Assembly: GCA_021234155.1 (NCBI GenBank)
Contig: JAJEKV010000036.1
Span: forward strand, 11,483,426-11,547,425
Origin: Isoetes taiwanensis
Lineage: Eukaryota; Streptophyta; Lycopodiopsida; Isoetales; Isoetaceae
Direction of reading: 5' to 3'
DNA length: 64,000 bases
Part shown: positions 475 through 41,560 of the stretch, piece after piece
How the letters are laid out: the number at the start of each line of letters is the position of its first letter
Position numbering within the stretch: the first letter of the stretch is position 1
Notes under the pieces: generated by a model
Told to the model about the DNA's origin: nothing
The model's input: only the letters and a program-made list of their open reading frames with translations
Database searches by the model: none
Made by a program: the position numbers and the translations under genes

Positions 475-1924
475 TGTCACGCTCCCATAATCTATACGAT
501 GCTCCCATCGTACAAATATGGGGAATTCCCCTTTCGTGGCAACTACAACACCATGGAAAGGCCCTCCGTCTGACTTGGACCACTTGGGATGGCCAAGTGT
601 CCGGGTCAGGAATATGGAGGTGTCATTCGTCCCACGTCCTCTATGGGAATCTTATACAGCAGAAGTGTACATACATGTTAGCACACAACAATCATGCTCA
701 AATAATATACCACCACAAAGGGTGGTCCATCCATCATCATCATCTACGTGGTAGTACAGGTACAAGATAACATAAGTAATATACTATAAAATAAGGCTCG
801 ACCCTGGACTCAGACTCCATGGGATCGACTGACGGTTAGGGCCTCCGCTTTGCAAATAGGCTGAAACATGCTATGGCGTGATTGTAGCCTTCCGGGGATG
901 CAATCTCATGGAATCACCCTCTGAAACTACTCCAAGTTACATCTCCACGGTTCGATGAGGCAAGTCAGGGAGGCGTCCCCTCCCCGAGCATGACAGATCC
1001 CTGGGTGTGCTAGAGAACACATGCCACATCAGTGACCCCCGCATCCGTACCGACTTAATCCCCTCAAATCTAAAGTCGGGCTCAGCTGCCTGTTCGAGTC
1101 CCAAGACGTCTATATTGGCACTCATCTGGGACCTAGGGAGTGTCAGACCCATATCTGGCCCATACTCAGTGATAGACTATAAGCCTAGCACACTGTAGGA
1201 TTCCTGTAGCCACGCTAGGCAAGATCCCACCCCCCGTTTCACTATCATACCCATTGTCTGGTGCTGAATCACATCATAGCATCCATAGTCAGGTGGGCTC
1301 TTGTGCATAGGCTGCATTTACTAGGTCTTAAGGGTTCTAGCTAGAGACATTTCTACTCCTAGGAAGCTTTCAGATATCTACCCTCCCTTAACCCCAGACA
1401 CACAGGAGAAACAGAAAGAGAGAACACAATCATAATCAAAGTATCCATCATCATCTTACTAACACATAAAAGAGAAATTAACCATTCCATCTAATCATAG
1501 AAGGGTTAGCTGAAGCATAGACTATCTAGAAACTAACTGGTCTTTTGGCTAGAGCCATTGTCACGAGAGGCTTCCATTCTTCAAGTCTGGTTACAACAGC
1601 TGGTAGCTCCTCCTTCCTCCAACTTTCCCCAAATTAAATTGGGGCAGAATTGGGGTAGGGTCGCATTTGCCCTCCAAACTTAGCAAGTTCCTCCTGGCCA
1701 ATCGATTTGGGCCAGGTGGCACTGCCTAATTGGCTGGCTTTTACCAATTAATAACCTAAGTAGCCTAATTAGGTTATTTATTCACTAATATTTTAGCATA
1801 GCTAATAAAAATCCTTTTAGGTTAACCCAAGTCATCCCCTATTGACCCCCTAAGGGTCTACTTATACACTGGTGACATGTCATAATATGTATATGTATAT
1901 TGTATAAATACATGGAACGTCACA
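475..1924 (-). mobile_element. Ty3/gypsy LTR (family 1), minus orientation
   Basis: Starts TGTCACGCTCCC and ends GGAACGTCACA, matching the terminal pattern of the intact LTRs at 46535-48121 and 60989-62582. Internal landmarks shared with those LTRs include the ACGATGCTCCCATCGT region and the wording around GTGTCATTCGTCCCACG. It is followed on the right by a pyrimidine-rich run (about 1925-1950), which on the minus strand is a polypurine tract. This is therefore the 3' LTR of a minus-strand element. The expected minus-strand interior is not present to its right, so the element is rearranged or was interrupted. Confidence 0.75.
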
Positions 1925-1950
1925 ATCTCCCCTCCCCCCTCCCCCAGCAT

Positions 1951-3129
1951 TGGGGTCCTCAGCATTGGGGTTAGTTTACTAAAAAGACAATTAAGTTATA
2001 AAAGATAACTTTATTTGTTGAAGTAATACAAGATTACATAAAGTTATTGTAGGAGCAAAGCCCCTTGACAATAGACACTAAATACCATATCACCAAAATT
2101 TTGATAGACGTGCACATACAAAATACAGTTAAATAACAAGAGATGGCCCCAGACTGAGGCCCAGAATCTTCTGCAGGACGTGAGTACGTGCTACTTGCCT
2201 GCAGAATTACAGTACATCAATACCTAAAATAGTGTGGTTGAAGGGACCACCCCCTTAAGAAAAAGAAATATGAATGAAGGAAACCCTATCATGCCTAAGG
2301 CTTACATTTTCGTCTCAATGTAAGGAATACAATTATTGTCATAGATGAATGCGTCCTATCATGAATGCCTATATGCCCAATTCCCCATCTAGGATGCATA
2401 TAACCCGACCCCTTAAATGATCCCTATCGGGTGTGCACAATATTCTAAGGGTTTCCAAGAAAGAATAACGGCTTAAGCAAGGGGCATGTCATCTAAATAA
2501 CCATTGAAGCCAAAATTAGCAAATATTTATCTTCTGCAAAGGGGGCGGCATCAAACTATTTTTTCTTAGCTATTCTCTGCACAAAGAAGGGGTTGGGTTG
2601 AGATTTCATCGCAGATGACTTTTGGGTGCTAAGAAAAAGGCAAACTCAGCTACAAATAGGATGGTCGGCCAGTTTATAGATACAGAAGAACACTGCTGCA
2701 GAATCCCGGCACCAACAGCCCAGTTCTTCATCGCTGATTCAACTTCATTTCTTTTACAAGATCCGACCAGTTCCAGACATTAGATTGATACTCCTTTTCT
2801 TGGACACTGAGACTGGCCCGGATCCCCATTTTGCTCTTATTTCTTAAGCCTATTCAAGCTTGATTTTGTTGTAAATTGATTGGTCTCAAGCTGAAGGAAG
2901 ATAGGCTGTAGTCAATCCTTCTTTCCTAAGTCCTTTGGAAATTGCCTTAAACTATGGATCCGGTTGGATGGATATCTGTTGCTCCATATCTTGTTTCTGA
3001 ATCAATGTACTCGTGCTCTTGAGAAGAGGTGATATAAAGACTCAAGAGTTACTTCTTTGTTCCGTTCCTTGTCTATACTATTATAGTTTGAAAGTTTTAT
3101 GCTAGTTAAATTCCTTGAATTGTATCAAG
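1951..3129 (+). other. Probable LTR/leader of a second retroelement
   Basis: No coding potential is seen. It lies directly upstream of a degenerate primer-binding site and a plus-strand gag, so most of it is probably that element's 5' LTR. The left LTR boundary cannot be placed without a second copy. Confidence 0.35.
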
Positions 3130-3142
3130 TGGTGTCAAAGCC
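3130..3142 (+). promoter_or_regulatory. Degenerate primer-binding site (iMet tRNA)
   Basis: TGGTGTCAAAGCC differs from the plant retroelement consensus TGGTATCAGAGCC at two positions. It lies 22 nt before the ATG (3165) that precedes the gag frame. Confidence 0.5.
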
Positions 3143-3164
3143 AATCCGTCCAAATACCTGATCA

Positions 3165-4275
3165 ATGGCCCAGAACTGCTTCAATGTCTCTGAAAGACAA
3201 TACCAGCAACTTAGCCTTGTCCAACGCAAGCTATATTGCATCTCAGTTAGCATTGCCTATGCCATGTAACCAGCAAGAGTATGATAGGCAAGTAGAATTG
3301 TTGTCTATCTTGTACCGCTTCCTTCCAGATATTTATCTGCAACCTCCACTGTCTGACGATCCTCCACTAGTAACCCCTCCACTGCCACCAAAATTGAGAA
3401 AATGGTTAGAGAAGGCAGACATGCCGTCTTTCAAAGGAGGAAAGACAAAGCCAGTTAAGGTCATTAGTTTCATAAGCCAGTGGGAAAAATTCTTTGAACA
3501 TGTGCAGGCAACGGATGTGGAAAGATTGCAAGCCATGGATACTTATTTAAAAGATCAAGCCCAAACATGGTGGCAAGGCAGACGAGAATGTGATCCAAAG
3601 ATTAACAATTGGGAAGTTTCAAAACGGCATTTGAAGCACATCATTTACCATCTAATTACCAGAGTGAGCTCTGTAGAGAATGGGACCGTTTGAAACAAGA
3701 GGAAGCAGAGAGTATTCAGTCCTACACTTCCGAATTCACTCACTTGGCGGCACTGATAAGAAATTTGGATGGGAATGAGCTTTTAAGAAAATATGTTAGC
3801 AGATGTAGAGATGATATCTATGCGGAGATGGAAATACTGCACCCTAAACATCTGGACATGGCTATAAAATTAGCATCTGCAGTAGAGAGGAAAATAGATC
3901 TAAAATCTAGAAATTTTGATTTTTGGGATGAGGAAACCTCAGATCAGGAGGATAAAAAGAAAAGCAAAGAAAAAGCCGAAAATAAGAAATATTCTTGACA
4001 TTTCAAGAAGAAGAGATATAATGGCGAGAGTAATGGTTCCGAAAAGAAGCGAGAAGAAGGAAATCAAAATCAGCAGCGGAATGAATCTAAGGAACCAAAG
4101 GGAGATTGCCATAGATATGGAGGAAAGCATTACATAAGGAACTGTCCGTTTGAAGAAGGGGGGATCACAAAAGCTGAGCCACCTAAACCCCAAAAGGTTA
4201 CTCAAATGCATGCGATTGAAGTCCCCAAACCCCTGGAAGATATAGCCGAGACTTCTACGGCTGTTGATGAGTAGA
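3165..4275 (+). pseudogene. gag: Ty3/gypsy gag, broken
   Basis: Retrotransposon capsid/nucleocapsid polyprotein. The capsid part contains ISQWEKFFEHV, AQTWWQGR and, after a frameshift near 3610, SFKTAFEAHHLPSNYQ and IQSYTSEFTHLAALI, the usual order of the Retrotrans_gag fold. An in-frame TGA at 3996-3998 interrupts a Lys/Glu-rich linker. The same frame then continues to a degenerate zinc knuckle, CHRYGGKHYIRNC, in which the second Cys is Tyr and the spacing is one residue short. The frame stops at TAG 4273-4275. No protease or polymerase follows, because an LTR fragment in the other insertion begins at about 4441. This is a dead fragment. Family assignment is firm, the exact clade is not. Confidence 0.8.
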
Positions 4276-6886: not shown

Positions 6887-8716
<1,830 letters not shown>

Positions 8717-26778: not shown

Positions 26779-27080
26779 CCCATGCTATTCGGCATCTATA
26801 TTGATCAGTTGAAAAACTGGTTGCAAGAAGATGGAGGGGCAGGCACTAGAACTGCTAGATATGTACTTTTGCTTTTGTTATATGCAGATGATATTGTGAT
26901 CTTTGCTAGAACTGCAAGTGACATGCAAAGACATATTAATGATTTAGCCTCATTTTGTAAGCATACAAGCATGTCGATCAATCTAGGTAAGAACTAGATT
27001 TTGGCTTTCAGCATGAGAACACTGGTTTCCATTTCTATTATAATGGGCAGGAGGTTGAAATATGTGACACAAATAAATAT
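26779..27080 (+). pseudogene. LINE reverse transcriptase, left part
   Basis: Non-LTR retrotransposon RT palm region: LFGIYIDQLKNWL, then LLYADDIVIFARTASDMQRH (catalytic YADD) and NDLASFCKHTSMSINLGK. After a frameshift near 26995 it continues GFQHENTGFHFYYNGQEVEI and CDTNKY. The frame is cut at 27080 by the 14.3-kb element and resumes at 41426. A CA/CG-rich microsatellite at about 26734-26765 precedes it. Confidence 0.85.
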
Positions 27081-27135
27081 AAACAAGGTTGCAAATTAAA
27101 CGGGAGTGTTGCAGCACTCCCGTTTCAAAGATTCC
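27081..27135. repeat. Left terminal inverted repeat and hairpin
   Basis: 26-bp TIR, overlapped at 27098-27125 by a perfect hairpin with an 11-bp stem (AAACGGGAGTG/CACTCCCGTTT) and 6-nt loop. CAAAGATTCC, also present near the right end, follows at once. Confidence 0.8.
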
Positions 27136-29000
27136 TTTAGAAAAAGCACGTCACTTCAAAAATTGGGCTTTTTTAAGAGAGGTTTAAAGTTTCAGGAGTA
27201 TCAATTTTTTTTGGGCCTATTTTTTGGGGTATTCTTTGGACACGACTTTGGATTTTTGGAGTTAAGCACGTGAAAATGGCAGAATTGAGACATGAGTACG
27301 TAATTTTATAGAGGTGGATGTACAAAAAACACAAATTTAGTAAACATAATAATAATAATTTCATTACTGTTTTTGTGTTATATCAATAATGGCCAATAAT
27401 GGCAATAAATAATAGATGTCAATCAGTAGCCACAACAAAAATCCGTCAGAGATCTAAATTAAAATCTTCTTCATTCTTCTTGCTGCTCTCAGCTTGATCA
27501 GTCTCTATCGTTTCACCTTTCTCTGGTGACTTAGGCTTTTCTGTGTTGGTGGTTGCTTCCGGTATTGTAGCTAGAGCAACTTCTTTCAGCTCTGCAAATG
27601 TAGCTTCGTCTTCCAAAGAGCTTGTAAAAGGAGGCTGTATCTCCGAAGATGTCATCTTAGCAAAATCAGAATTAGACTTTGCCCCCAACTCTTTATTCTT
27701 GTCTGGTAGAGTTAGAAAGTCTCATCTTAATGAACTGTACAGCCTCCTTATCAATGTCAACAGCTACACAATTTCGGCCCTTCTTAAGTGCACAAGCAAT
27801 AGTTGTACCAGAGCCAGAAAATGCGTCGAGCACCCAATCTCCTGGACGTGAGAACATGTCTAGAAGATGGTTAATCAGCTTCTGTGGCTTCTGGTAGTGA
27901 TTCACTATTCTTCCTTGTGCACTAGGGTCCTGCAGCTTCTGTAACACAGCTAGAAACTCCAACAGGTTTGAAAAGTTCTGGCACGCCGCTGTGTTGAAGT
28001 GTTCCATTGTATGTTTCCCATCGAAACTCCAATAAGCCACATGGAGATATTCGACCTTACTCAGCAGTCGCGGGCCTCCACCATGGTAATTAATATTTGT
28101 TTTATACCTAAGGAACAAAAAAATAAAAAAGGATTTAAGTACAGCCAAAAGAAACGTGATAGGAATAGAAACTCCTAACAAGAATTTAAAAATGCTACGG
28201 ATGTAACTACAAAAAAAAGAAGGTAATGAAAACAAAAGGACTTGTGTGTTCCGTAATAAGTGCTTACCAAACCCGATTTTCATAACCGACTTAGCTTGAA
28301 GCGAACCAAAATGATTCTTAAAGTCGGGCTTCCACAAGGCGGATTGCATGCTTGAGTGAAATACAACCCGACCTCCAATGTTTTGCCGTGGTAATTTGCT
28401 TTATACCGTCGGCGAAAGCATTAAACTTCGAGTTTTTAAATGGTGGTCGTCATTAGCGGTACCTTTTTCGACTTAAACCCATATGGAAGGTCAGCTATTA
28501 CCAAGGTAAAATCTTAGGGCTTTATTGATTCGGCTAATTTGGTGCAATCACCGGTGTACTATCTGAAACGGGTTATTTTGATCGTACATTGTAAACCGTT
28601 CGTAATCGGAGGGCTCGGTGTCCAAAACACACTTTGTCCCGGCCAAATATGTTCTCTTTCTCGCGTTGTCCTAACCAGATGCATGAAGCCCTCCGGTAGG
28701 TCCTTGTTTTTCTTTTTGCTCTGCAAAAAGAAACGTCTTAGTAACAAGAAGAACAACAATATGAAAAACAAGTCAACATACCCAGCCTTCAAAATTTGGC
28801 GCATATTGGGTAATCCTGTCGTCCGAGGTTGCGATAGGGTAAAGCTCTTTGCACCTTTCCCAGCTGTCGACATTTAACTGCTCCATTAAGCATGTTTGAC
28901 ATGTGATGACATTTTTTTGGCTGTAATATAATACGAACATTAGAAGGAACAAAACTAAAAAGGAAAGCAACAAGAAAGAATCATTTAAAGACTGTAAGAT

Positions 29001-29280
29001 AAAGTGTATTCCAGAATACACTTCGGCCCTCACACTGTAAGGCGAAGTGTATTCCGGAATACACTTTGTCTCTTGCTTGAGGGCCAAACTGTATTCTGGA
29101 ATACACTTTGTCTCCTACGTGAGGGCCAAAGTGTATTCCGGAATACACTTTGTCTCCCGCGAGTGTGCCAAAGTGTATTCCGGAATACACTTTGTCTCCC
29201 GCGAGTGGGCCAAAGTGTATTCCGGAATACACTTTGTCTTTCGTGTATGAGCCACAGTGTATTTCAGAAAACACTTCTTC
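29001..29280. repeat. Palindrome array 1: seven sites, 42-bp period
   Basis: Palindrome core GTGTATTCCGGAATACAC extends to AAA...TTTG in the best copies. Centres are at about 29012.5, 29055.5, 29097.5, 29139.5, 29181.5, 29223.5 and 29265.5, so spacing is 43 then 42 x5. Outer copies are more degenerate. The 16-bp spacers are themselves alike (TCTCCCGCGAGTGGGC). The array lies in the 393-bp intron 28921-29313 of the methylase gene. Constant spacers and perfect dyad symmetry indicate protein binding sites rather than a CRISPR. 42 bp is four helical turns, which puts every site on one face of the DNA. Confidence 0.95.
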
Positions 29281-29583
29281 CTATCAAATAAAAACCCAAA
29301 GTGGCATTCTTACTTGTGGAGCTCCTTGGACATTTCTTCTAGTGTAAATTCCTTATCAACAACCTTTTGCACTAGCCTTTCTAGTATAGCCATATCTGTG
29401 AAGCCCTGCATTTCTCGCCAGACAGTTATTGTCATTTTTTTTTTTGGGACGTTGGATCCTTTTTTCTTTTCGGAGACCTTTCCTTTGCTTTTCAAATCAC
29501 CACGCTCGAACATGGTGAAGATTTCGTTTTGGAGGTCCCAAATCTGCAAAGAAAAAAGCGATGTCAGTGGGAAAGTTGCAGGG

Positions 29584-29597
29584 GTATTCCAGAATAC
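29584..29597. promoter_or_regulatory. Single degenerate palindrome in a 65-bp intron
   Basis: GTATTCCAGAATAC, the core of the array palindrome with one centre change, occupies part of intron 29544-29608 of the methylase gene. Confidence 0.7.
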
Positions 29598-30957
29598 AAG
29601 AAACTTACTCTGCCCTCTCTAAAGGCTAGTTGGAACCAGTTGTCATGTGGTATTAGAGACTGCCGTTTGTTAGCCTCGTCGTATTTGAGGCGGCACTCCA
29701 CACAGCACACGCTTCCTTCAGTTCCAGAGAGTATTGTGGTTTCTTCAAATCATCTCCATATTTTTCTTTAAATATAACATATTCCCTGTGCATGAACCTG
29801 ATTTTGTCCATGAAACTCATTTTAAGCTTATATTCGTTGTCAGCATTGTGCGTGTTGGCAACGATTTTGGCTTCTTCGTCTGTCAGACCACAGTAAACAA
29901 CGCAGAGCACAGAGAGATATCTTGGATTGTTTTTCTCCTTGTACAACTGCCTCCTTGCTTTGAAACTGTGGTTTTCCCCAAGGACATAGTGCATGTAGGT
30001 GTCTGCTTTTTCTCTGTCATAGTCCTTGGGATCCATGCACTGGGATCTGTCAACAAGAACAACAATAGGAGCAACATGGGCATTGGGATTGCTCCTTATT
30101 CTGTCCTTCAGATTTCTTAAGTGGTCAGCATAGATTTTGTGAACCTGAAGGGGGCGCTCACCATCTTCATTCTTCGGTGGCAACCTCATGGAAGTTACTG
30201 GCAAGTATATTACACCTTGCACATACTTATTCTAATTAATTTCTTCCATCCTCTCTGAGGTCTTGTCCACCTTTTTTTCTTTAATGGCCACCCCAGGTGC
30301 CTTGCCCTTTTCCTTCTTCGTTTTTGGTTGTTCCTCGGGGATTTCTGCAACTTCAAGCTGTTGTACCTTCCGTTTCTTTGGTTCCTTAGTGGCTATGGTG
30401 GCTCTTGACCTGCTAAGTTTCTTTGGCGGCACTGGGGGAACTTCCTGTTCTTCTTCTTGGGACCCTCCATCTGATGACCTCCCTGAAGTACTAGGAGAAG
30501 GTGATGATCCTGATCTACCTCCATCTGATTGCTCGGACTCACTGACAGGAAAGTCCTCGCTTGTATTAGAACAAACCTGTCTAATTAGTGAACACAGGCT
30601 ACGTTTGGTCCGGTAGTGTGAAAAGAATTTGTACAGTGCCTGTGGTTGCACACTGACAATTCTAAAGAATGCGATGTCTACAACAATGAACCCTTGGGAG
30701 GTCTTGAAGAATAGCCTCCCCACCTGACCTCCTTGTCCGGCTACCTCTGAGACCTCTTTTATTGTCCCAAGGTTAACGAACTCGGTGTCGGCGTACCTTT
30801 TGTTCCCAGCACTTTTACAGACGTACAGAAACGTCAGTGTGCTGTATTTTCCGTCTGCACCCCTGGTTACGAACCATTGCGTTTGAAAGTTTTCGTATAT
30901 CGCAGGCTCGTCCGTGTCAGCGGTGTGCTTCTGAGGGTGTGGACGCCTAAGCTTCAA

Positions 30958-31800
30958 AGATTTTTTTGATGCCCTTTTGCTTCCTTCCTCCCTGCCACTG
31001 AAACGTTTAAAACAACAATGTTAAGACAGAAAATGGGATGGAAGCTGTATTCCAGAATAAGATTTACTAACCTTGTGCCCTAAAGGCCAGCAAAAAACAG
31101 GAAAACAAGCAAAAATATTGTCGCTCTAACTCAATTTTTTATGCCTTAATTGGACTAAAAAGTGGTATGTTTAACATAAAAAGTGGTCTGTTTCCGCTAA
31201 AAAAGTGGTATTTTTAAGTGCAAAAAAACAAGTGTTTTCAAGAAGACATGCAAAGTGTATTCCAGAATACACTTTGCCCTCCAGGCGAAGAGCAAAGTGT
31301 ATTCCGGAATACACTTTGCTCTTCGCAATACACTTTGCTCTTCGCCTGGAGGGCAAAGTGAGCAAAGTGTATTCCGGAATACACTTTGCACTTCGCCAGA
31401 AGCCCAAATACACTTTGGCCTACAAAAGCAAACCAGGAAACACACGAAAGACGTACTATGTACTTTACATGCTTACATGTCCATTGTTTTCGCTATGTAA
31501 ATCGGAATACAGCAAATCAATATAGATCAGAAGGCGCTCGGGCTGGCGACTAAATTTAGGAGGCGCTCAATTTTCCTTTTTAAAGGTAGGCCACTGTCAG
31601 TTGTGTTTTTCTATGTGATGCGGAATACGTCTTGTCCAAACACTCTGGACAAGTGTATTCTGGAATAGCATCTTTGCACACACACAGCAAATGCTGCACA
31701 TAAAATCCTATTCTGGAATAGCATTTGTATTCTCGAATATCATTAGTCCAATCGACTTGTGAGTTAGTAACAAGTCCAGAATTTTTTGCAGTTGTTTAAC
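30958..31800. promoter_or_regulatory. Divergent promoter region with palindrome sites
   Basis: Spacer between the two outward-facing genes. Besides array 2 it holds degenerate sites: TGTATTCCAGAATAAG (about 31047), GTGTATTCTGGAATAG (about 31652), CTATTCTGGAATAG (about 31708) and GTATTCTCGAATAT (about 31727). Autoregulation of both genes by the palindrome-binding protein is a natural inference. Confidence 0.55.
31251..31418. repeat. Palindrome array 2
   Basis: Three full sites, with centres at about 31263.5, 31305.5 and 31375.5, plus half sites at 31327-31337 and 31406-31417. The first two are 42 bp apart. The spacer CCCTCCAGGCGAAGAGC reappears inverted at about 31338-31354, so part of the array is itself a larger inverted repeat. 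Palindrome identical to array 1 but the spacers are unrelated, so the palindrome is the conserved unit. Confidence 0.93.
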
Positions 31801-34800
31801 ATGGTTAAGCGCTTCGTGAACAAACTTCCACCACCATTTGTTTGCCCAAGTACCTCTACTTTAGATGGAACACAAGACGGAGATGCTTCTTCAACACCTA
31901 CCTCGACAAGGTCTTTGTTGCTTCTCGAAGACACTCCGAGTCCAGTAACTAGTAGACTGCCACCACCTTTCCAACCCTCTCCAAGTCCAGTAGGAAACCG
32001 GCTGCCACCTCCTTTCAAAGCCTCACCTGTTGCACGTAGCAATCTTCCACCACCATTTGTACCATCCCCCGACACTACAATGGCTCGACCTCAGAAAATT
32101 TTTCGAAACAGACTACCTCAGCCCTTTGTTGTTTCTCCATCTTCACTTACACGTACCAGGAATACATCACGTTCTGAAGACTGCGAGATTCACCATAGCT
32201 TCTCCCACCACGATTTCACTACAAATGAAGACGACCTTGCAACATCTACTCCTCTTCACACAACCGTGGTGACACATGGGTTTGCAGAATTTCAGTCTGC
32301 TATAAGAGACATGTTTGAACGAACTCCTTATGAAGAAGCTACAATAACTTTCGCTGGCACATCATATGGTGGCCCATCTCCTTCATTCAACACTGTACCT
32401 CCGCCTTATCCGAGTACAGCTTCACGTGGTTTGTTCTCCTCTACAAGCACACCACTAAGGGTAGAGGAGGTCACCCCCAGAGTAGAACTCTCTTCAGAAG
32501 ATGAAGACACCAACGAAGTGCAACGAGATTACACATTCTCTAACAGTCCACCAAGAAATTCAAGGTGGATTATGGTTTGAGAGCATGCTCCTCTGTAAGA
32601 AGAAGAAACCTTATGGACGATCGTAAAATGAGAAGACTTTTAAGAAGTAAATGCTGCTCATTGGGTTGCATCAACAAATTTAACATGTCTAAATTACGAG
32701 CAATTAGAGACAACTACAGTTCAATGACATTGGCTGACCAGAATGCCTACTTGGCCTATCATGTAAGACTAGACCGCAACACCTTCTTGCACTACATTAA
32801 CCGTCAAGAAGTTTGTCAGAAATGCTTTATGGTTGTCCACCGTTTAGGGTCCACCAGAATGTCTAGAATACACAAAAGACTGGACAAAAATCCAGCAATT
32901 GATGATCATTGTGGACCAAGAAGAGTTGTAACCATGCATGCCCTTCTTCTGCTTTGTGTCATGGATGGAGAAATATTTTAGAGAAACATGTGAGAAGTCG
33001 CCTAACAAAACATGTATCATTTAACGATAACATCACCAAAAAGATGTTTTTAATCGGTACAAAGAGACTTGCACTCAGCTTCAAAGACATCTCTTACTCA
33101 CACTTCACCGGTGTGGAAAAGTGAATTCGGTTTAGTGAAAATTCCCGGAGACATAGAATGTCCGTTTGCTCAAGGTGTCGCGAAATTAAAGAGTCAACGA
33201 AACCGCAAAGGCAGAGGTCGAAAGAAGTCAGCTCATGTTCTCCAATCTCTCACTTGTTTTAAAGAAAATGCTTTGACCTGATTTCTTCTCTGAGATATTG
33301 TGCAACGTAACCTTGCCGGACATCGTGAACAACAACAAGCGTGAGAGAAGAAAGCTTGCCAAACCACGAGAAAAAAAGCTCTTGAGCGTCCCACGCAATA
33401 TATATGTCATTGTGATTGATGGAATGGACCAAAAAAAAACTACTCTATCGCATTTCTTGAACATTCCTAAAGATGTGTCAGAGGAATGTTTTGTTAAGGT
33501 CCACCTTGTAGGAGCTATGGTCTTCAAAGGAAGTCTAAAGTGCAAAGTATTTTTGACATATCTAAACTTGCATGGTGACCCGAACCTCACAATTACAATT
33601 CTTAACAAGGTCCTGTGCGAGCAAGAGCAATTACCACCAGTGCTTTACCTGCAACTTGACAATACTACAAGGGAGAACAAGAATCAAACACTCTTTGCAT
33701 ATTGTGCCATGTTAGTGGAGCTAGGGATCTTTAGAAAAGTGAAGCTGGGTTTCTTGCTTGTAGGCCACACTCATGATCAAATTGACCAAATGTTCAGCAG
33801 ATTTTCTGTGCGCCTCAGAAGGAAGAAGGCTTTCTCTCTTCCTACTTTAGTTCGAATTATTGAAGACTCTTACACTCCCACTCCAATGATCGATCTTCTT
33901 AAAGAGACTGCTGATTTCAGAGAGTTTATTTTCTCTCAACGTTCAGACAGAGAACAAGCTGTGAACAAATTGAATGATCTCACCTTTCAACATCACATCA
34001 AGTTCTACTTGAAGGATGGCCAAAGTTTCTTACAGGGGAAGAAGTATACCACAACTAAGGACTGGAGTCCACCAGAGGGATTACGCTTCCTTAAATATCC
34101 AGACACTTCCTTCATAGAACGTGCTGAGCAACTTCCTCTCAAAAATCCTAAGGGGTCCAAGCAGAAGAAAAGTACCCCAGAGTCATCCTTAAAAGCCATT
34201 GAAAATGGAATTTCCTCAGGCTTTAAGTACTTCTTAAAAGAAGATCGGATGTGGTGGACTAATTTCTTTCTCGAACAAAAAATTGTTGTGAAAAATATAG
34301 CTCTAAGACAGTTGCAAGAACCATTTCAATGGCCTAACACCTTCCATCAACCCCAGCACCAAGCAGGTCCAAGCAATGCTACATTAGCACCTGCAGTAGA
34401 AGAAGACGAGGATCGAGTCATGTACCTCGGACCAAGACGCAGGAATGAGCCTCAAGGTAATATCACAGAAATTGCCAAGGGTATGCTAATTGCTCTTCCA
34501 ACTGAGGAGGATGACAAAGGTCGACCTTTCTGGATAGCAAAAGTGCTTGACACAGTCAAGGAGGAAGGCTTAGTCACTAAACTCAAGATTCATTGGCTTG
34601 CAACACGCTTAAAAAATGCTTTTGAAGGTAGATATAAGTTAGAAATGAGAAGCCAAAGAAAAGGAAGAAAGTCCAAGAAGGTGGGTTGTAGGGATGAGCT
34701 GATCCTTAATGACGTGACTATATTGTGCTATGATTTTAAATTGAAATCTGACAATCGTCTACGCCAGAGGACTATCAATTTGCTTAAAAAAGCTTGTAAT

Positions 34801-34986
34801 TACGAAGAAGAGGATGAAGAAGGTGGTGGCAATGCTTCACCATCTGTTGATAGTGATGAGGAAGATAACTCAAGCACTTCCTCTAGTGACAGTGAAAGAA
34901 GTGAAGGTGATGAGGATGGCATAAATGAATATGATGACGTCCTGGATCCCTCTCTCATCACTCCTCACACTTTTGTACATAACTGA
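31801..34986 (+). pseudogene. RNase H-like DDE/D-type protein (DUF7869-like), frameshifted
   Basis: Candidate transposase. Part 1 (31801-32580): low complexity with five [NS][KRL]LPxPF repeats (NKLPPPF, SRLPPPF, NRLPPPF, SNLPPPF, NRLPQPF). A frameshift near 32560 leads to a Cys-rich module, SKCCSLGCINKFNMSKLRAI and EVCQKCFMVVHRLGSTRM. Frameshifts at about 32950-33200 disrupt the middle. The main frame (33298-34986, about 562 codons) is intact: IYVIVIDGMDQKKT (D41, D44), LYLQLDNTTRENKN (D121), FLLVGHTHDQIDQMFSR (H157, H159, D160, D163), then about residues 373-440 a chromatin-reader-like GRPFWIAKVLD...LKIHWLA segment and an acidic tail. Position and spacing fit an RNase H-fold catalytic triad. 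I recall this family as DUF7869, common in plants, algae, oomycetes and invertebrates, function unproven. Transposase role is inferred from the TIRs. Confidence 0.7.
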
Positions 34987-35877
34987 GTCTTAGAAAAAGA
35001 CTGTAAATTTTGCATGTGAATATGAAGATTCTATCTTCAAATTTTGAGAATACTACAGTTTCAGTTACAGACTTACTTCAATTTTTTGTTAAATATTTTA
35101 TCCTCTGAAATTAGAATTTCTCTCATAAAATATACTTCAAGAACATTCTATTTGCTAAGAAAAGTGACACTTTAAAAAAGTCAATTCTTTCGTTGCACAA
35201 AAACATTAGTCACTTTGGGGAGGGGTCAAAATAGAATTTCATTTCTAGAGCCTAGTTGCACACAACCAACACAATGCAACAACATGCTGACATGTGGCCC
35301 TCCCCTTTATTTCCAAAATAGCAGTACAACAATAATTCACTTCTAATAAACCCTCATTTCTAATAATCCCTCATGCACACTGGCCTTTTTGGGTATACAA
35401 AAGCATCAAAGTACCACAAAGGATCCAAAACTCAAATAAGTTCATAGAGATTTATAGGCCTCCGTCGCTAATGTCCAACACGACCCCAACAAGTCAAGAG
35501 TCTTGCGAAACTCGCAAAGGGCATCTCGACATCCACCTTGAGCAGATCTGCAAAAGAAACAAAGAAACACCTGGTACGAGGACCCCAATCTTGGCACAAA
35601 GGCTACCACATCTAAGGCATACGAGGGCCTACCACCAAGGCGCAAGGGCCCTCGACATCGACTCCACTGACAACCCAACATTCAAGACATAAGAGTCGCC
35701 CCAACAACAATGCTTGGCATGAGAGCCTCCAACCCATTGTACAAGACAACCTCGCAAGATCGAGAAGTCGAACAAGGAGCCAATCAACATAAAAAACTAA
35801 GACATTGACTATAAGAATACTACAATCACGCAAGGTTGTAACGCAGGGCTAAAACTAAAAAGGGGGAGGGGGGGTGG
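34987..35877. other. Non-coding segment right of the RNase H-like gene
   Basis: Probably 3' UTR followed by remnants. A 47-bp segment starting TTCTAGAGCCTAGTTGCACA at about 35245 is repeated right after the first direct repeat (36028). No gene seen. Confidence 0.5.
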
Positions 35878-36027
35878 GGCATGCGACTACAAAGGGGGAG
35901 GCTCAAAAGACGGCTGATGAAGATGGGAGGAATGCAACAAGTCTATAAATACTCCAAGGGGGGACTCTCACAACTAGCCTCAAGAAGCGGATTTATCTGC
36001 TAATCTCAAAACGCAGATAAATCGCAC
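35878..36027 (+). repeat. 150-bp direct repeat, left copy (candidate short LTR)
   Basis: Near-identical to 41156-41305. Contains TATAAATA (35944-35951) and, at its end, a hairpin GATTTATCTGC/GCAGATAAATC (35990-36000, 36013-36023). TATA box upstream of a hairpin near the 3' end suits a small LTR. Confidence 0.6.
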
Positions 36028-39000
36028 TTCTAGAGCCTAGTTGCACACAACCAACACAATGCAACAACATGCTGAAACAAGAGGCAGAAAGACAAGAAAC
36101 AAAAAGTCTAAACTATCATAAGCTTAGCACTCAAAACATTGCCGAAAGGAACCAATCCTAGAGCATCTCACAAAAATGAAATAAAAGTGCAAGGGAAGGA
36201 ACATCAAACGAGAAAAGATCATGACGTAGGGACCTGACTCACTAAAAATAACATCAACGGATGCCGAAAAATCAAACTATAGCTCCATCAACAAGGGGTG
36301 GGGACTACACGTGTCCAAACCACCACACCACCATCGCAATTCCGAAAGGTTAAACACAACATACTCACTTACTAAAAAAAATAGTACAACATATTCACTC
36401 GCTAAGAAAAAATAGTGGACCTAAAAAAAAGGCTCCATCAAACCAACCAAGCTACCAACATGAACAATCCTAAGCTTAATAACTCAACATACCACTCCTA
36501 CTCAATGACAATGAATGCTAGGACTAGAAGACACAACAAAATGCTATGACGCTACAAAAATCAATGAAGGCATGTGACTACTACAAAACAAGGCTCGAAG
36601 GACAACTAGGCTGAAAGATCTTGCACTACCACCGCATACCGGCACAAGGATTAACCAAGGCGGACTCCCCTTCAAAAACCCACGCGGGCACGTGAACACC
36701 ACTCAACTCTGTACATACCAATCAACTCCAGAGAAAAGTAGACAATTATCAACGTCAGAAGGAGCTGAGGAGCTTCAAAATCAAAGTACCATTGCACCAC
36801 TTGGAACCCAAAATACTATGAGGATTGAAAGGCACTAGAAGTCACAGGGAGTCCCTAACTTCTACTCCCCTAAACCAAGTAGGCAATAAGGCAAGAGCCA
36901 TTCCCACCTAGCACAAAGGTCATTTTCACCTCTCAACAAACAACATCGACAAAATAAAATCTCTAACCCTCATGAATCGACAACCGCACAAAGGTAAAAT
37001 ATGAAGTCACTCATGTGCATACGACCTATATTAACAGACTGGCACTACGATTGCTAAGGGCTCTTGAAAACCACAAGAGATGAAAATACAAACAAATAAA
37101 CCCATGAACTAGACGACACAAGACTTGGGAAAAGAAAAAGTGGACATTAACAAAAATGAACTCTAAAATGAAATAGCGGGACATCAAAAGCAAAACAGCA
37201 CGCCATACTCTATTCCGCTTCCTGTTCTTAATGTCTTGCCAAGCAAATCTTTAACATCTTGCCAAGCAACACAAAAATCTCAGTCCACTTAAAAATCTAT
37301 ATTGCTTTCCCAACACTAAAATGGAGAAAATGACATTTCTTGGCACACTGGAGCCCCCTAGGACTTCATCTACTGTACCCTCTCTCTTCCATACATAATG
37401 GGACTAAAGAGAATCTTGTTGTGGTTGCTACCCAAAATGAAACATGCACAGAAACAAGCTTAATGAACCTAATGAAACTCAAGCTGGAATAAAAAAGTCC
37501 AAACCATGCTAGCATATGATAAGGCGCTCTTGACGAGAAAAATGAGAATACAGACCACACTCTAAACTAATGCCTGTAAACAGTCCACACCCTAAACTAA
37601 TGCCTGTGCAGGCTGGTACATGACACCGTAAGAGACTAAAGCAGCACCACAAAGTAGGAAGGACAAACTAAGGTACAAAAACAAAGAGCAAAAAGGACAC
37701 TGTTACAAAATCCCAAGGCAGTTACCACAACTCATGCCAGCCACACCTCGAGCCAATTAGGAAGACTGTAACCCCAAATAGGGGCCCTACAAAACTAGCA
37801 TCCAAGCAGTACTAGAAAGTTCTAGAAAACAATAAACAGCAGCATACTTTGGCAGTCTCTATGCTAGCATCTACTGAGAGAAGTTCCAGCATCTAATGAG
37901 AGAAGTTCGTGCATCTAACAAGAGAAATTCCAAATGAAATAATAGGGACAGGCTACTAATAAACACCCACAAGTTGAACATACTCAACAGGGGCAATAAA
38001 GATAAGGCAAGGACAAGATTGAATCAAAGAGCCCAACTACTGCTTTATTAAAATCCACAAGGGGTTAACTATCCATACGCTAAGTGAAGATTGTACCATC
38101 AAGCTGAAGGGAACCACATCCAAGTGAAAATTGTACCAACGTAGCTACCAATAAACACTCACAACATGCAGACAACATGCTCAATAACAACAACATGCTA
38201 AAAAATGAATGGGTACTTGTTGCTCAAGACCGTATCTAGAAATGGACAAGAGAGGACAAAATCGCCTAAAAGAACCACTAATACCTATTGAACACTCATG
38301 AGATGTCACACTCCAAGCAAAATTAACTAACGAACACTCGTGAGATGTAGACCACACAATCTAACATAAAACAAAGGCCTACTTACTAGCTGCTTAGAAC
38401 TGTCTCCAGAATGCCCATCTCCGCTACCCCACAATCTAACAGAAATCAAATGCCTACTTACTTGGCACTACAAGCTAAAACAGACTTAGACAAGGATGTC
38501 CAACAAAATCGAAGTGTTGTGGCATAAACATGTATCCATACGTTATCAAACTAGCCATCATAAACAAAGACGAGAAGGTAAGCCCACCTCATAAAATCAA
38601 AGTCGCATGCAAGAAACCATCTGTACATGCGCACAAAATGTCAAATTATAACACATTACAAACTGCCATGGACTATTAGTTTATGCGCACGGTTCTGCAG
38701 TGTACTACATCTCTTGCAGTTTACAGGGCTCAACTCACAGCTCCAACACCACGGCGAAGAATCCAGCATCATACATAACCATCTAAGGCCATGGTTGTTG
38801 AATCATAAGACAATACGAAGGCAGCTATGCAGGAAAACCAAGATAACAGCTCCATCTCTACTGGCCAATTGCTTTGCACAATGCTATGAAGCTCAAAACA
38901 AGCTGGGATGCAAATAACACAATGGTACACGGTCAACACAAACTAAAAGGCCTTAGCAGATTCAGACAGATGGGAAAGAGACCGACATTCAACAGGAAAC

Positions 39001-41155
39001 CCAATCTATCCAAGTCTCATAGCGAGTATTGTGTGTATGCAGAAGTTAAAACTGTCCGGTAACATAAACTATAAGAATTATGACGAAGTCAAACCCTGCC
39101 AGAAAGCATTACTGCACGGTGATGTGAACAATTGTGATGAAGCCAAATCCTACCGTAAAAAAACATTACCGCATCGGTGATGTGAACAATTGTGATGGAG
39201 GCAAATTTTGCCGTAAAAAGCATTACTGCACGATGGTGTGAAGCTTGGACTATAGAAATAGAGATTACCACAAAGAGACTGACACAAACTCAAAGGAAGA
39301 GAGACATTGGAAGTGCTGATCGAGCGAGACAAATAACACCTGCAAGAGAGACTGTAATAACGTTCGGCCATGGATATGCAAAATTCACAGGGTCTCTAAA
39401 GGAATAGATGACAAAACGCTGCTGGATATACTGACAAGCATGAGAGCAAGGGGGCACAATAGTCCAGCCAAAAAGCCACATCAAGTCAGTGTTCACCTAG
39501 CTCATCACATCTTCCCTATCTCAACATAATCGGAAAGCATGCTAACAAAGATATAGTGGCAACCAAAACCTATGACCGGGCATCCAAAAATACTATCTTT
39601 GGACCAACGGAAAAGCACGGAGAAGAGTGGCTAAGGATGGGCAAGGAGAAGAGTAACCAAGGACATCCGGGACGACGACTTCAAAGGAGAGACAATAAAA
39701 TGCCAGACTACAGAATGTGGACCACTACAAGAAACAAAGAGGGAGGAATTGGGGCCAAAAAAGGATTAAGGCAGGCAATGGCAATGGCACGGGAGCAAAC
39801 AGATCTAGACTGAGTACAATACAAATCCGCGAACCAACAAAAGAAGATTGCCAAACAATCGCCGATTATCTCAAAACTCCTGATAGGCCATCGTGACAAG
39901 TCTCCAGAGATCAACTAAACCCAAATAAAATCAATCTGAGGCAACTTATAGGCTTACCGAGATCACAGGGACGAACTTTCTTGAAGGGCACGAGCCTTGA
40001 GATGAATACCTTAGGCTCAAGCAACACCAATATTAAATGAAATTAGCCATCTCCAGACACGTCCATAGCCAGTACCATCCATGAGATTGCAATCTTCTAG
40101 GTGAACGTAACTTGAGATACTGCAATAGACTTAGTCCGAGCCACCAATTGCAACACAACATCATACTCCAAGCTCTGAACAAATGCATTCATTCCAAAAA
40201 AACGTAGAGAAGGGATCAAAATTTCACTTTTGACACGCGTTCAAATCGAAAGGAGTGCATCCTAAAACACGAACGTGAATCACGGAAGCTTAAAATGGCT
40301 AGAAATAGAATAGGAGATGGAGCAATCCAAGGATGCACAAAAAGCCTTTGGACGTCAACCAAGGAATGTCGTAGTGCAAAGAAAACAAATAGATCGGCTA
40401 AAATACTCATCATGAACACAACCAATCAGCTCATGCATGCCAGAAAATATTGCGAAATTGACTTTACAGAGTATGTGATGCAGGGAACACTCGTCTCACA
40501 ACTACAATACCTCCTTGCAACTGCAATCCTTCTCCGAGCAAAGCTATGGCAACTAAGGATATGCCGTAGGAATTTATGGCCACGCCCAGAGACCGACGAA
40601 CCTATTCCTGCTAAAGCAACAAATGACAGAGAAAGCATCCTTGTCCTTCAAAATAAAAACATAAACAATAAACCATAAAAGAACATCTCAGATCTCTATG
40701 CCAGCCTGGTCGGCAAGTGCCTGATGCCACAAGAATTTCAAAAGAGCTCACACAATAGAACCATCGCCTCTGCAAAAGACTTTGCCCAGAATCCAGCCCC
40801 AAACCCTAGCTTGGCAGTTTACATGCAACAACGCACTCCAAAGGCTAGCTCGAACAACTCCAACACAAGTGCTTAAGTGTCGACTCAACACCGCTAAACC
40901 GCCGGCCTAGTTGCCGACTTAAACCTAAGAGCATCTCCTAATCCAACGCTGCTTATACAAGAACCAAACCAACGAAAACATGGCTCTGGTAAACTCCTCG
41001 AGATTAACTTGCACGAACACAACTGTTTGAACCAGGCACAAAATTGAACAATCAAATGGTGCGAAGCCCGGCGGTCAACGGGATCGCCCGCAACGAAAAG
41101 GAAATCGAGAATCCACAATCGGCCACAAAGGGAGAGAATCGCCCAGAGAAAAAAT
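36028..41155 (+). mobile_element. Interior of a non-coding LARD-like retroelement
   Basis: 5.1 kb with no credible ORF and a strong strand bias, A-rich and T/G-poor on the plus strand, as in retroelement RNA. It ends in AGAGAAAAAA, a possible polypurine tract, directly before the right direct repeat. No convincing primer-binding site follows the left repeat. Short tandem motifs occur at about 37240-37270 (TCTTGCCAAGCAA), 37860-37935 (GCATCTA..GAGAGAAGTTC, three units) and 39095-39242. Confidence 0.5.
39095..39242 (+). repeat. Tandem repeat, about 57-bp unit, 2.5 copies
   Basis: Units share GGTGATGTGAACAATTGTGA and AGCATTACTGCACG-like text, with small indels between copies. Confidence 0.8.
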
Positions 41156-41305
41156 GGCATGCGACTACAAAGGGGGAGGCTCAAAAGACGGCTGATGAAG
41201 ATGGGAGGAATGCAACAAGTCTATAAATACTCCAAGGGGGGACTCTCACAACTAGCCTCAAGAAGCGGATTTATCTGCTAATCTCAAAACGCAGATAAAT
41301 CGCAC
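41156..41305 (+). repeat. 150-bp direct repeat, right copy (candidate short LTR)
   Basis: Matches 35878-36027, including TATAAATA (41222-41229) and the terminal hairpin. It lies only 95 bp inside the right TIR of the 14.3-kb element. Confidence 0.6.
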
Positions 41306-41354
41306 GCATCTTTTTTTTTTTAACCTCGTTTTACCCGCTTTTGTAAAAAAAAAA

Positions 41355-41425
41355 GGAATCTTTGAGGAATATTCCTTTCGCTCTCGTTTCGATGATTTGC
41401 TCCCGTTTAATACACAATCTTGTTT
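41355..41425. repeat. Right terminal inverted repeat
   Basis: 41400-41425 is the inverted partner of 27081-27106. GGAATCTTTG at 41355-41364 pairs with 27126-27135, with about 35 bp of unlike sequence between the two blocks. Confidence 0.8.
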
Positions 41426-41560
41426 ATATTGGGCTTTTAGTGGATCACAACTGTAGCTGGAATAAGGCAGTGGAACAGAGAATGAATGCAGGGCTTAAAG
41501 CCCTGTATGCAATGCAGAGGAAACGTAAGGGTGTGAATCTTGGTTCGGGAAATTCCCCGG
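41426..41560 (+). pseudogene. LINE reverse transcriptase, right part
   Basis: Continues the RT thumb region: GLLVDHNCSWNKAVEQRMNA and GLKALYAMQRK. It fits directly onto the left part ending NKY at 27080. Resemblance fades after about 41545. Confidence 0.8.

Follow-up and report, generated by a model that had tools for sequence, protein, structure and literature searches.

The 64,000-nucleotide stretch of Isoetes taiwanensis DNA analysed here (the window) carries a DNA transposon with terminal inverted repeats (TIRs), in which the gene for a putative DUF7869 transposase stands head-to-head with a gene for a ParB-like protein that also contains a DNA methylase domain. What appears to be new is the presence of parS-like palindrome arrays in the shared promoter region and in introns, with a palindrome sequence that follows the lineage of the ParB domain. 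Our favoured reading, to which we give a probability of roughly 0.55, is that this is a Sola-like cut-and-paste element whose ParB-methylase binds the palindromes of its own family and methylates the element's DNA, thereby countering silencing or marking the element as self. The features of the window copy are as follows.

27078 to 27081, unstranded: left copy of the target duplication TATA, from base-by-base boundary reading
27082 to 27106, plus strand: left terminal inverted repeat, AACAAG...AAACGGGAG
27117 to 27125: inverted block CTCCCGTTT, inward of the left terminal repeat
27433 to 28106, minus strand: last exon region of the ParB-methylase gene, with methylase motif I (FSGSGTT) and the C-terminal tail, frame broken (PF01555, 7.4e-17)
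28272 to 28706, minus strand: methylase exon region with motif IV (ADLPYG), frames broken
28782 to 28922, minus strand: exon 3 of the ParB-methylase gene
29004 to 29274, unstranded: class A palindrome array in intron 2, seven sites at 42-bp spacing, five of them exact to GTGTATTCNNGAATACAC
29313 to 29543, minus strand: exon 2 of the ParB-methylase gene
29582 to 29599, unstranded: lone class A site within intron 1, degenerate (2 mismatches)
29606 to 30999, minus strand: exon 1, with a provisional 5' limit, encoding the barrel domain, acidic linker and ParB domain, with one stop and one frame break in the window copy
31255 to 31384, unstranded: class A array in the divergent promoter region, three exact sites
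31798 to 34986, plus strand: DUF7869 gene, putative DDD transposase (PF25273, 3.6e-52), upstream frame broken, open frame 33277 to 34986
35243 to 41305, unstranded: nested insertion foreign to the element, two head-to-tail units (35243 to 36027 and 36028 to 41305) with matching ends
41400 to 41424, minus strand: right terminal inverted repeat
41425 to 41428, unstranded: right copy of the target duplication TATA, from the boundary reading

Further copies were recovered by using the two termini as queries against the genome (1.66 Gb in 1,110 contigs). The first 620 bases of the element match at a minimum of 40 places, namely the window and 39 further sites with 93-98% identity (40 scored of 1,490 first-look candidates), and the last 120 bases also match at at least 40 places (40 scored of 1,312). 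A sample was formed from the best-scoring 20 of the 39 other left-end places, each taken as a 10-kb stretch; the right end lies within the stretch in nine of these copies, and the remaining 11 are truncated, rearranged or longer. Nine diverged loci were found through the methylase P0122, four of 9.5 kb, one of which was extended by 1.5 kb, and five of 4.2 kb.

The palindromic sites described in the first-pass annotation are confirmed and fall into distinct classes. Class A has the form GTGTATTC-CG-GAATACAC, and class B the form CTATGC-GC-GCATAG with outer bases that vary between and within loci. Genome-wide counts are 1,810 for the 22-mer form of class A and 213 for the class B 18-mer, compared with none for the reversed control of class A and none for the class B control. 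Between 27082 and 35242 there are six perfect 16-bp palindromes, and the diverged locus L031 has seven; any such palindrome is present in five and nine of 50 dinucleotide shuffles, respectively, with a maximum of two in each case. Of the 20 sampled copies, 19 contain class A and none contains class B; the copy without class A, L018, continues into another gene. Among the diverged loci, L030 and L032 (72-82% nucleotide identity to the window in matched pieces) carry class A. The other seven (L029, L031 and L034-L038), whose ParB exons share 31-52% amino acid identity with lineage A, carry 4 to 14 class B sites per locus and no class A site with an exact core. When up to three mismatches are permitted, L029 shows one A-like site in its flank, at position 300 of the locus, and the window shows one B-like site inside the nested insertion.

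A tree of the ParB core (33 rows, with L009 and L018 left out as too short) splits the A and B groups just as the palindromes do, with support of 0.999 for the B clade and 0.945 for A against the rest. The DUF7869 protein diverges along the same lineages (36-49% amino acid identity between A and B, from tblastn segments), so that lineage tracking fits both proteins and the transposase may instead be the reader of the palindromes. Under this alternative, which we consider unlikely, DUF7869 or its N-terminal part would recognise the sites, much as other transposases bind subterminal and internal repeats, and the ParB-methylase would mark the element by some other route. In its favour, the transposase gene too has arrays upstream of it, and in lineage B additional sites lie near both ends of L031. 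However, arrays also occur within the introns of the ParB-methylase gene, away from the element ends, and no palindrome site lies within ~1.9 kb of either end of the window element. Moreover, ParB proteins bind palindromes of this size and symmetry. Recognition by the ParB-methylase is the reading we prefer, based on its predicted fold, on how symmetrical the sites are and on the lineage tracking. Site spacings in all lineages form clusters at ~31, 40-43 and 50-52 bp, near whole helical turns, as if the bound proteins were to sit on one face of the DNA.

A third lineage emerged when the ParB profile was run against genomes of bacteria and archaea. It is represented by nine contigs (L039-L047) from a single bin titled 'uncultured Trichormus' (ERR2144891) that resemble plant sequence and have separate exons. 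The cyanobiont of Azolla is Trichormus azollae, and the contigs are probably plant contamination from Azolla. DUF7869 is head-to-head with the ParB-methylase in five of the nine, and the other four contigs start 162-615 bp before the ParB match. The region upstream contains a class C palindrome, GTCGATGC-NNN-GCATCGAC, in six contigs. At three mismatches or fewer, there are four sites in L039, five in L040, 15 in L041, ten in L042, eight in L044 and two in L046, and none in L043, L045 or L047. Apart from one A-like site in L047 (again at three mismatches or fewer), no class A or B sites are present in the nine contigs. L041 additionally contains a GTCGATAC variant, which looks as if a palindrome site were in the course of change.

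The half-sites GTGTATTC (A), GTCTATGC (B) and GTCGATGC (C) agree at five of eight positions across all three classes, a level that random triples reach at a frequency of 2.5e-5 in fixed register, for half-sites picked after the arrays had been seen. Arrays are located in intron 1 of L032, intron 2 of the window copy and L030, and intron 3 of all seven lineage B loci, and the fern-associated loci have no intronic arrays. The promoter array is the constant feature across lineages, and the intronic arrays shift between introns.

The minus-strand gene encodes, in order, a PH-like barrel, an acidic linker, the ParB-like domain, helical exons and the methylase domain, in agreement with the ParB-like methylase originally proposed. 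Its PF01555 match in the window reaches 62.5 bits, above the cut-off of 26.7, and places the methylase in the N6/N4 type as judged from sequence. Structure prediction yields a ParB N-domain fold for the ParB-like domain, and the gene product is accordingly predicted to contain one. In the ParB alignment (A4), GGSHSAEARRQL-like residues are found where the canonical cytidine triphosphate-binding GxxR motif would be expected; presumably, the nucleotide-binding motif is altered relative to that of bacterial ParB. The canonical catalytic motif IV of such methylases is (D/N/S)PP(Y/F/W). Here, 17 of the 29 loci that were scanned contain a D[LI]PYG motif, and the regular expression had no match in the other 12. 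A profile search with the ParB-methylase returned 61 proteins. One of these is labelled Ceratopteris richardii, and seven are Gb_ entries of EukProt, presumably from Ginkgo.

Both genes of the window copy carry frame breaks, and it is probably not the autonomous element that had been proposed; it is a broken member of the family that could move only with proteins supplied by other copies. The first two exons form one open frame in L012 (587 codons) and in L015 (568 codons), and therefore intact exons exist. The same 10-kb stretch of L012 holds another FSGSGTT methylase motif (PPRWILDAFSGSGTTAVCA), distinct from the first, at gene-strand position 988, perhaps from another methylase element nearby.

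Variants were counted by codon position in 21 rows (the window and the 20 sampled copies), with columns of fewer than eight letters dropped and a variant regarded as shared when carried by at least three rows. In the methylase-gene exons, shared variants number 47/36/170 at positions 1/2/3 (~900 sites each), and singletons 198/178/227 (p 0.049). The corresponding values for the transposase gene are 70/78/141 and 174/168/202, and a noncoding control has 64 shared variants in 958. Shared variants presumably derive mainly from lineages that were still moving, and singletons mainly from changes after insertion. The excess of shared variants at third positions therefore indicates that the methylase gene has been kept by selection, which by this measure is at least as strong as that on the transposase. 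Several points weigh against this interpretation. The short motif IV segment at 28450-28518 gives 5/3/1, two short transposase segments lack codon periodicity, the exon segments were picked by eye, and the shared counts depend on the phylogeny of the copies.

These data bear on two further explanations for the palindromes. The ParB-methylase might be an autoregulator of the KorB type that binds operators between divergent genes, represses both and thereby limits copy number, with methylation being secondary. We judge this to be quite unlikely, because it leaves unexplained both the intronic arrays and the selection on the methylase domain, where the segment 27728-28106 has shared variants of 2/3/17. 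Alternatively, the palindromes could be ordinary promoter or enhancer repeats for host transcription factors, with the ParB-methylase as unrelated cargo. Tandem promoter repeats are common in transposons, and changes of motif could follow changes in host factors. This possibility is nevertheless improbable, given that three lineages from two plant sources have different yet similar half-sites at the same promoter position and that the ParB-methylase cargo has been kept by selection.

The DDE/D-type enzyme of the first-pass annotation corresponds to DUF7869, which contains a candidate triad of aspartates. In an alignment of 34 rows that includes the window (named rows are Ceratopteris, Riccia, Cymbomonas and Branchiostoma, and many others lack names), every row has the aspartates of QLDN and GHTHD.IDQMFS, and at least 90% of rows retain the one in IDGMDQ, where P0017 has N. 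A sequence search found no relative of DUF7869 in the PDB. We infer that the protein is a DDD-type transposase that moves the element by a cut-and-paste route, because the conserved aspartate triad is accompanied by TIRs and 4-bp target duplications.

The boundaries of the element support this view. Its inverted termini (27076-27106 against 41400-41430, flanks included) span 31 nucleotides and are 87% complementary. The inverted ends reported earlier are thus real, although their outermost bases are AACAAG...CTTGTT (27082 and 41424) rather than AAACAAG. A reverse-transcriptase frame of a long interspersed nuclear element (LINE) is present at the left flank (RVT_1, E 1e-9) and continues at the right flank, as had been noticed, and when the flanks are joined with the element and a single TATA removed, the LINE frame is open and reads ...EICDTNKYIGLLVDHNCSWNKAVEQRMNAG... 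across the junction. The transposon interrupts a LINE. Restoration of this frame had been attributed to removal of the element with a 2-bp AT duplication; that reading deletes the same number of bases and therefore also restores the frame, but the duplication is one of 4 bp.

The flanks of most other copies tested likewise show 4-bp rather than 2-bp duplications. With the ends taken as AACAAG or AACACT on the left and TTGTT on the right, the four bases on one side of the copy match those on the other in the window (TATA), L011, L015, L019, L020, L022, L025 and L028, and do not match in L023 and L024. The diverged L031 (9,770 bp, with L033) and L032 (7,922 bp) have duplicated AAGA and ATTT, respectively, and the duplication is exact in 10 of the 12 copies tested. 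The TIRs of L031 are 34 bp long with 32 positions matched. L032 has a 12-bp palindrome, AATGTGCACATT, on both sides (429-440 and 8370-8382), close to the 4-bp duplication.

The annotation had treated the whole segment 27081..41425 as one 14.3-kb TIR transposon. The transposon itself stands, but not this size. All nine copies that reach the right end lack 35243-41305 and join window base ~35242 directly to ~41306 (by BLAST, with eight junctions read base by base and L023 by BLAST alone). These 6,063 bp, in units of 785 and 5,278 bp, are found only in the window copy among the copies examined and are therefore a later insertion, so that the element proper measures ~8.3 kb. Each unit of the insertion ends in a hairpin (GCGGATTTATCTGC...GCAGATAAATCGC), the insertion is 38% A, and no target duplication was seen at window positions 35243-41305. 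It is possibly an element of the rolling-circle type.

The pairing of genes is not new, since transposons with a ParB-methylase have been published for brown, green and red algae, and the earlier statement that no named superfamily has this combination does not hold. Sola1-1_Ec32 from the brown alga Ectocarpus encodes a ParB-like protein with an N4/N6 DNA methylase on the strand opposite its transposase, and this protein was proposed to bind and modify its own transposon; the same source points through Iyer 2011 and Petroll 2025 to similar transposon proteins in green and red algae (PMC12477816). The Isoetes element has this pairing, also on opposite strands, and is ~8.3 kb rather than 21.5 kb; the likeness drawn here is one of gene content and layout. 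The passages that describe Sola1-1_Ec32 mention neither palindromic arrays nor lineage-specific sites.

According to PMC10741241, Sola elements are characterised by a DDD transposase, 4-bp duplications and lengths of 2-9 kb, with some above 15 kb, and are present in moss. The 4-bp duplications, exact in 10 of the 12 copies, agree with this class, as do TIRs of 31 nucleotides (window) and 34 bp (L031) within its range of 11 bp to ~1.1 kb. We use the term Sola-like rather than Sola, because the assignment is by structural marks. EnSpm/CACTA elements, described in PMC12730594 as having CAC..GTG termini and a 3-bp duplication, are ruled out by the AACAAG termini and the 4-bp duplication.

The closest parallel with a known mode of action is offered by the VANC proteins, which counter silencing of Arabidopsis VANDAL elements. 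VANC target repeats sit in introns and upstream of the transposase, differ between related VANDALs, and VANC causes loss of DNA methylation (PMC5735166, PMC10398659). Common to both systems, on these descriptions, are an element-encoded protein, tandem motifs in the introns of the accessory gene and upstream of the transposase, and family-specific motifs. The protein family (DUF1985/DUF287 for VANC) and the transposase are different, and methylation is lost in one case, whereas the protein in the other has a methylase domain. Neither DUF1985 nor DUF287 was found when the ParB-methylase and related proteins were scanned against Pfam, which rules out membership in VANDAL/VANC. The ParB-methylase most likely works like VANC, which would be a likeness of action and not of identity.

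The predicted ParB fold is shared with bacterial ParB/parS, Noc and KorB. Bacterial ParB proteins read palindromes of similar length and symmetry; unlike them, the Isoetes protein is eukaryotic, lies inside a transposon and has a methylase and a PH-like barrel joined to its ParB part. By analogy with ParB and parS, the ParB part would recognise the palindromes of its own family and bring the methylase domain to the promoter region, where N6-adenine or N4-cytosine might be modified. Such methylation could keep the element expressed despite host silencing, or label it as self while sparing unrelated elements, and specificity would switch with the changes among the half-sites GTGTATTC, GTCTATGC and GTCGATGC. 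The evidence drawn from sequence covers the anatomy, the copies, the selection on the methylase gene and the lineage-following arrays, and the step in which local methylation keeps the element active or marked as self is the least certain. A bolder version, which we regard as doubtful, is a land-plant ParB-parS system that loads at family palindromes, spreads over the 8-10 kb element in the manner of bacterial ParB, taking the methylase with it, and writes N6-methyladenine or N4-methylcytosine as a self-mark against silencing, with half-site mutations creating mutually blind families.

Until now, the ParB-methylase genes of algal transposons had a proposed role only. The same kind of gene is present in land plants, apparently kept by selection and with a candidate target that tracks the protein lineage, and this makes the function of transposon-borne bacterial-type methylases directly testable by binding and methylome experiments. 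It may also provide a second example, independent of the first, of sequence-specific self-protection on the VANC principle, here using a fold known from bacterial segregation.

Some minor observations concern individual loci. The public cyanobacterial bin ERR2144891 holds apparent plant transposon contigs. L018 and L026 have the same left flank, and this locus was therefore duplicated. L018 also contains, at 1542-3542, a long open frame that encodes an aromatic amino acid lyase (PF00221, 2.6e-140) and starts inside transposon sequence, as if it had been captured by or fused to the transposon.

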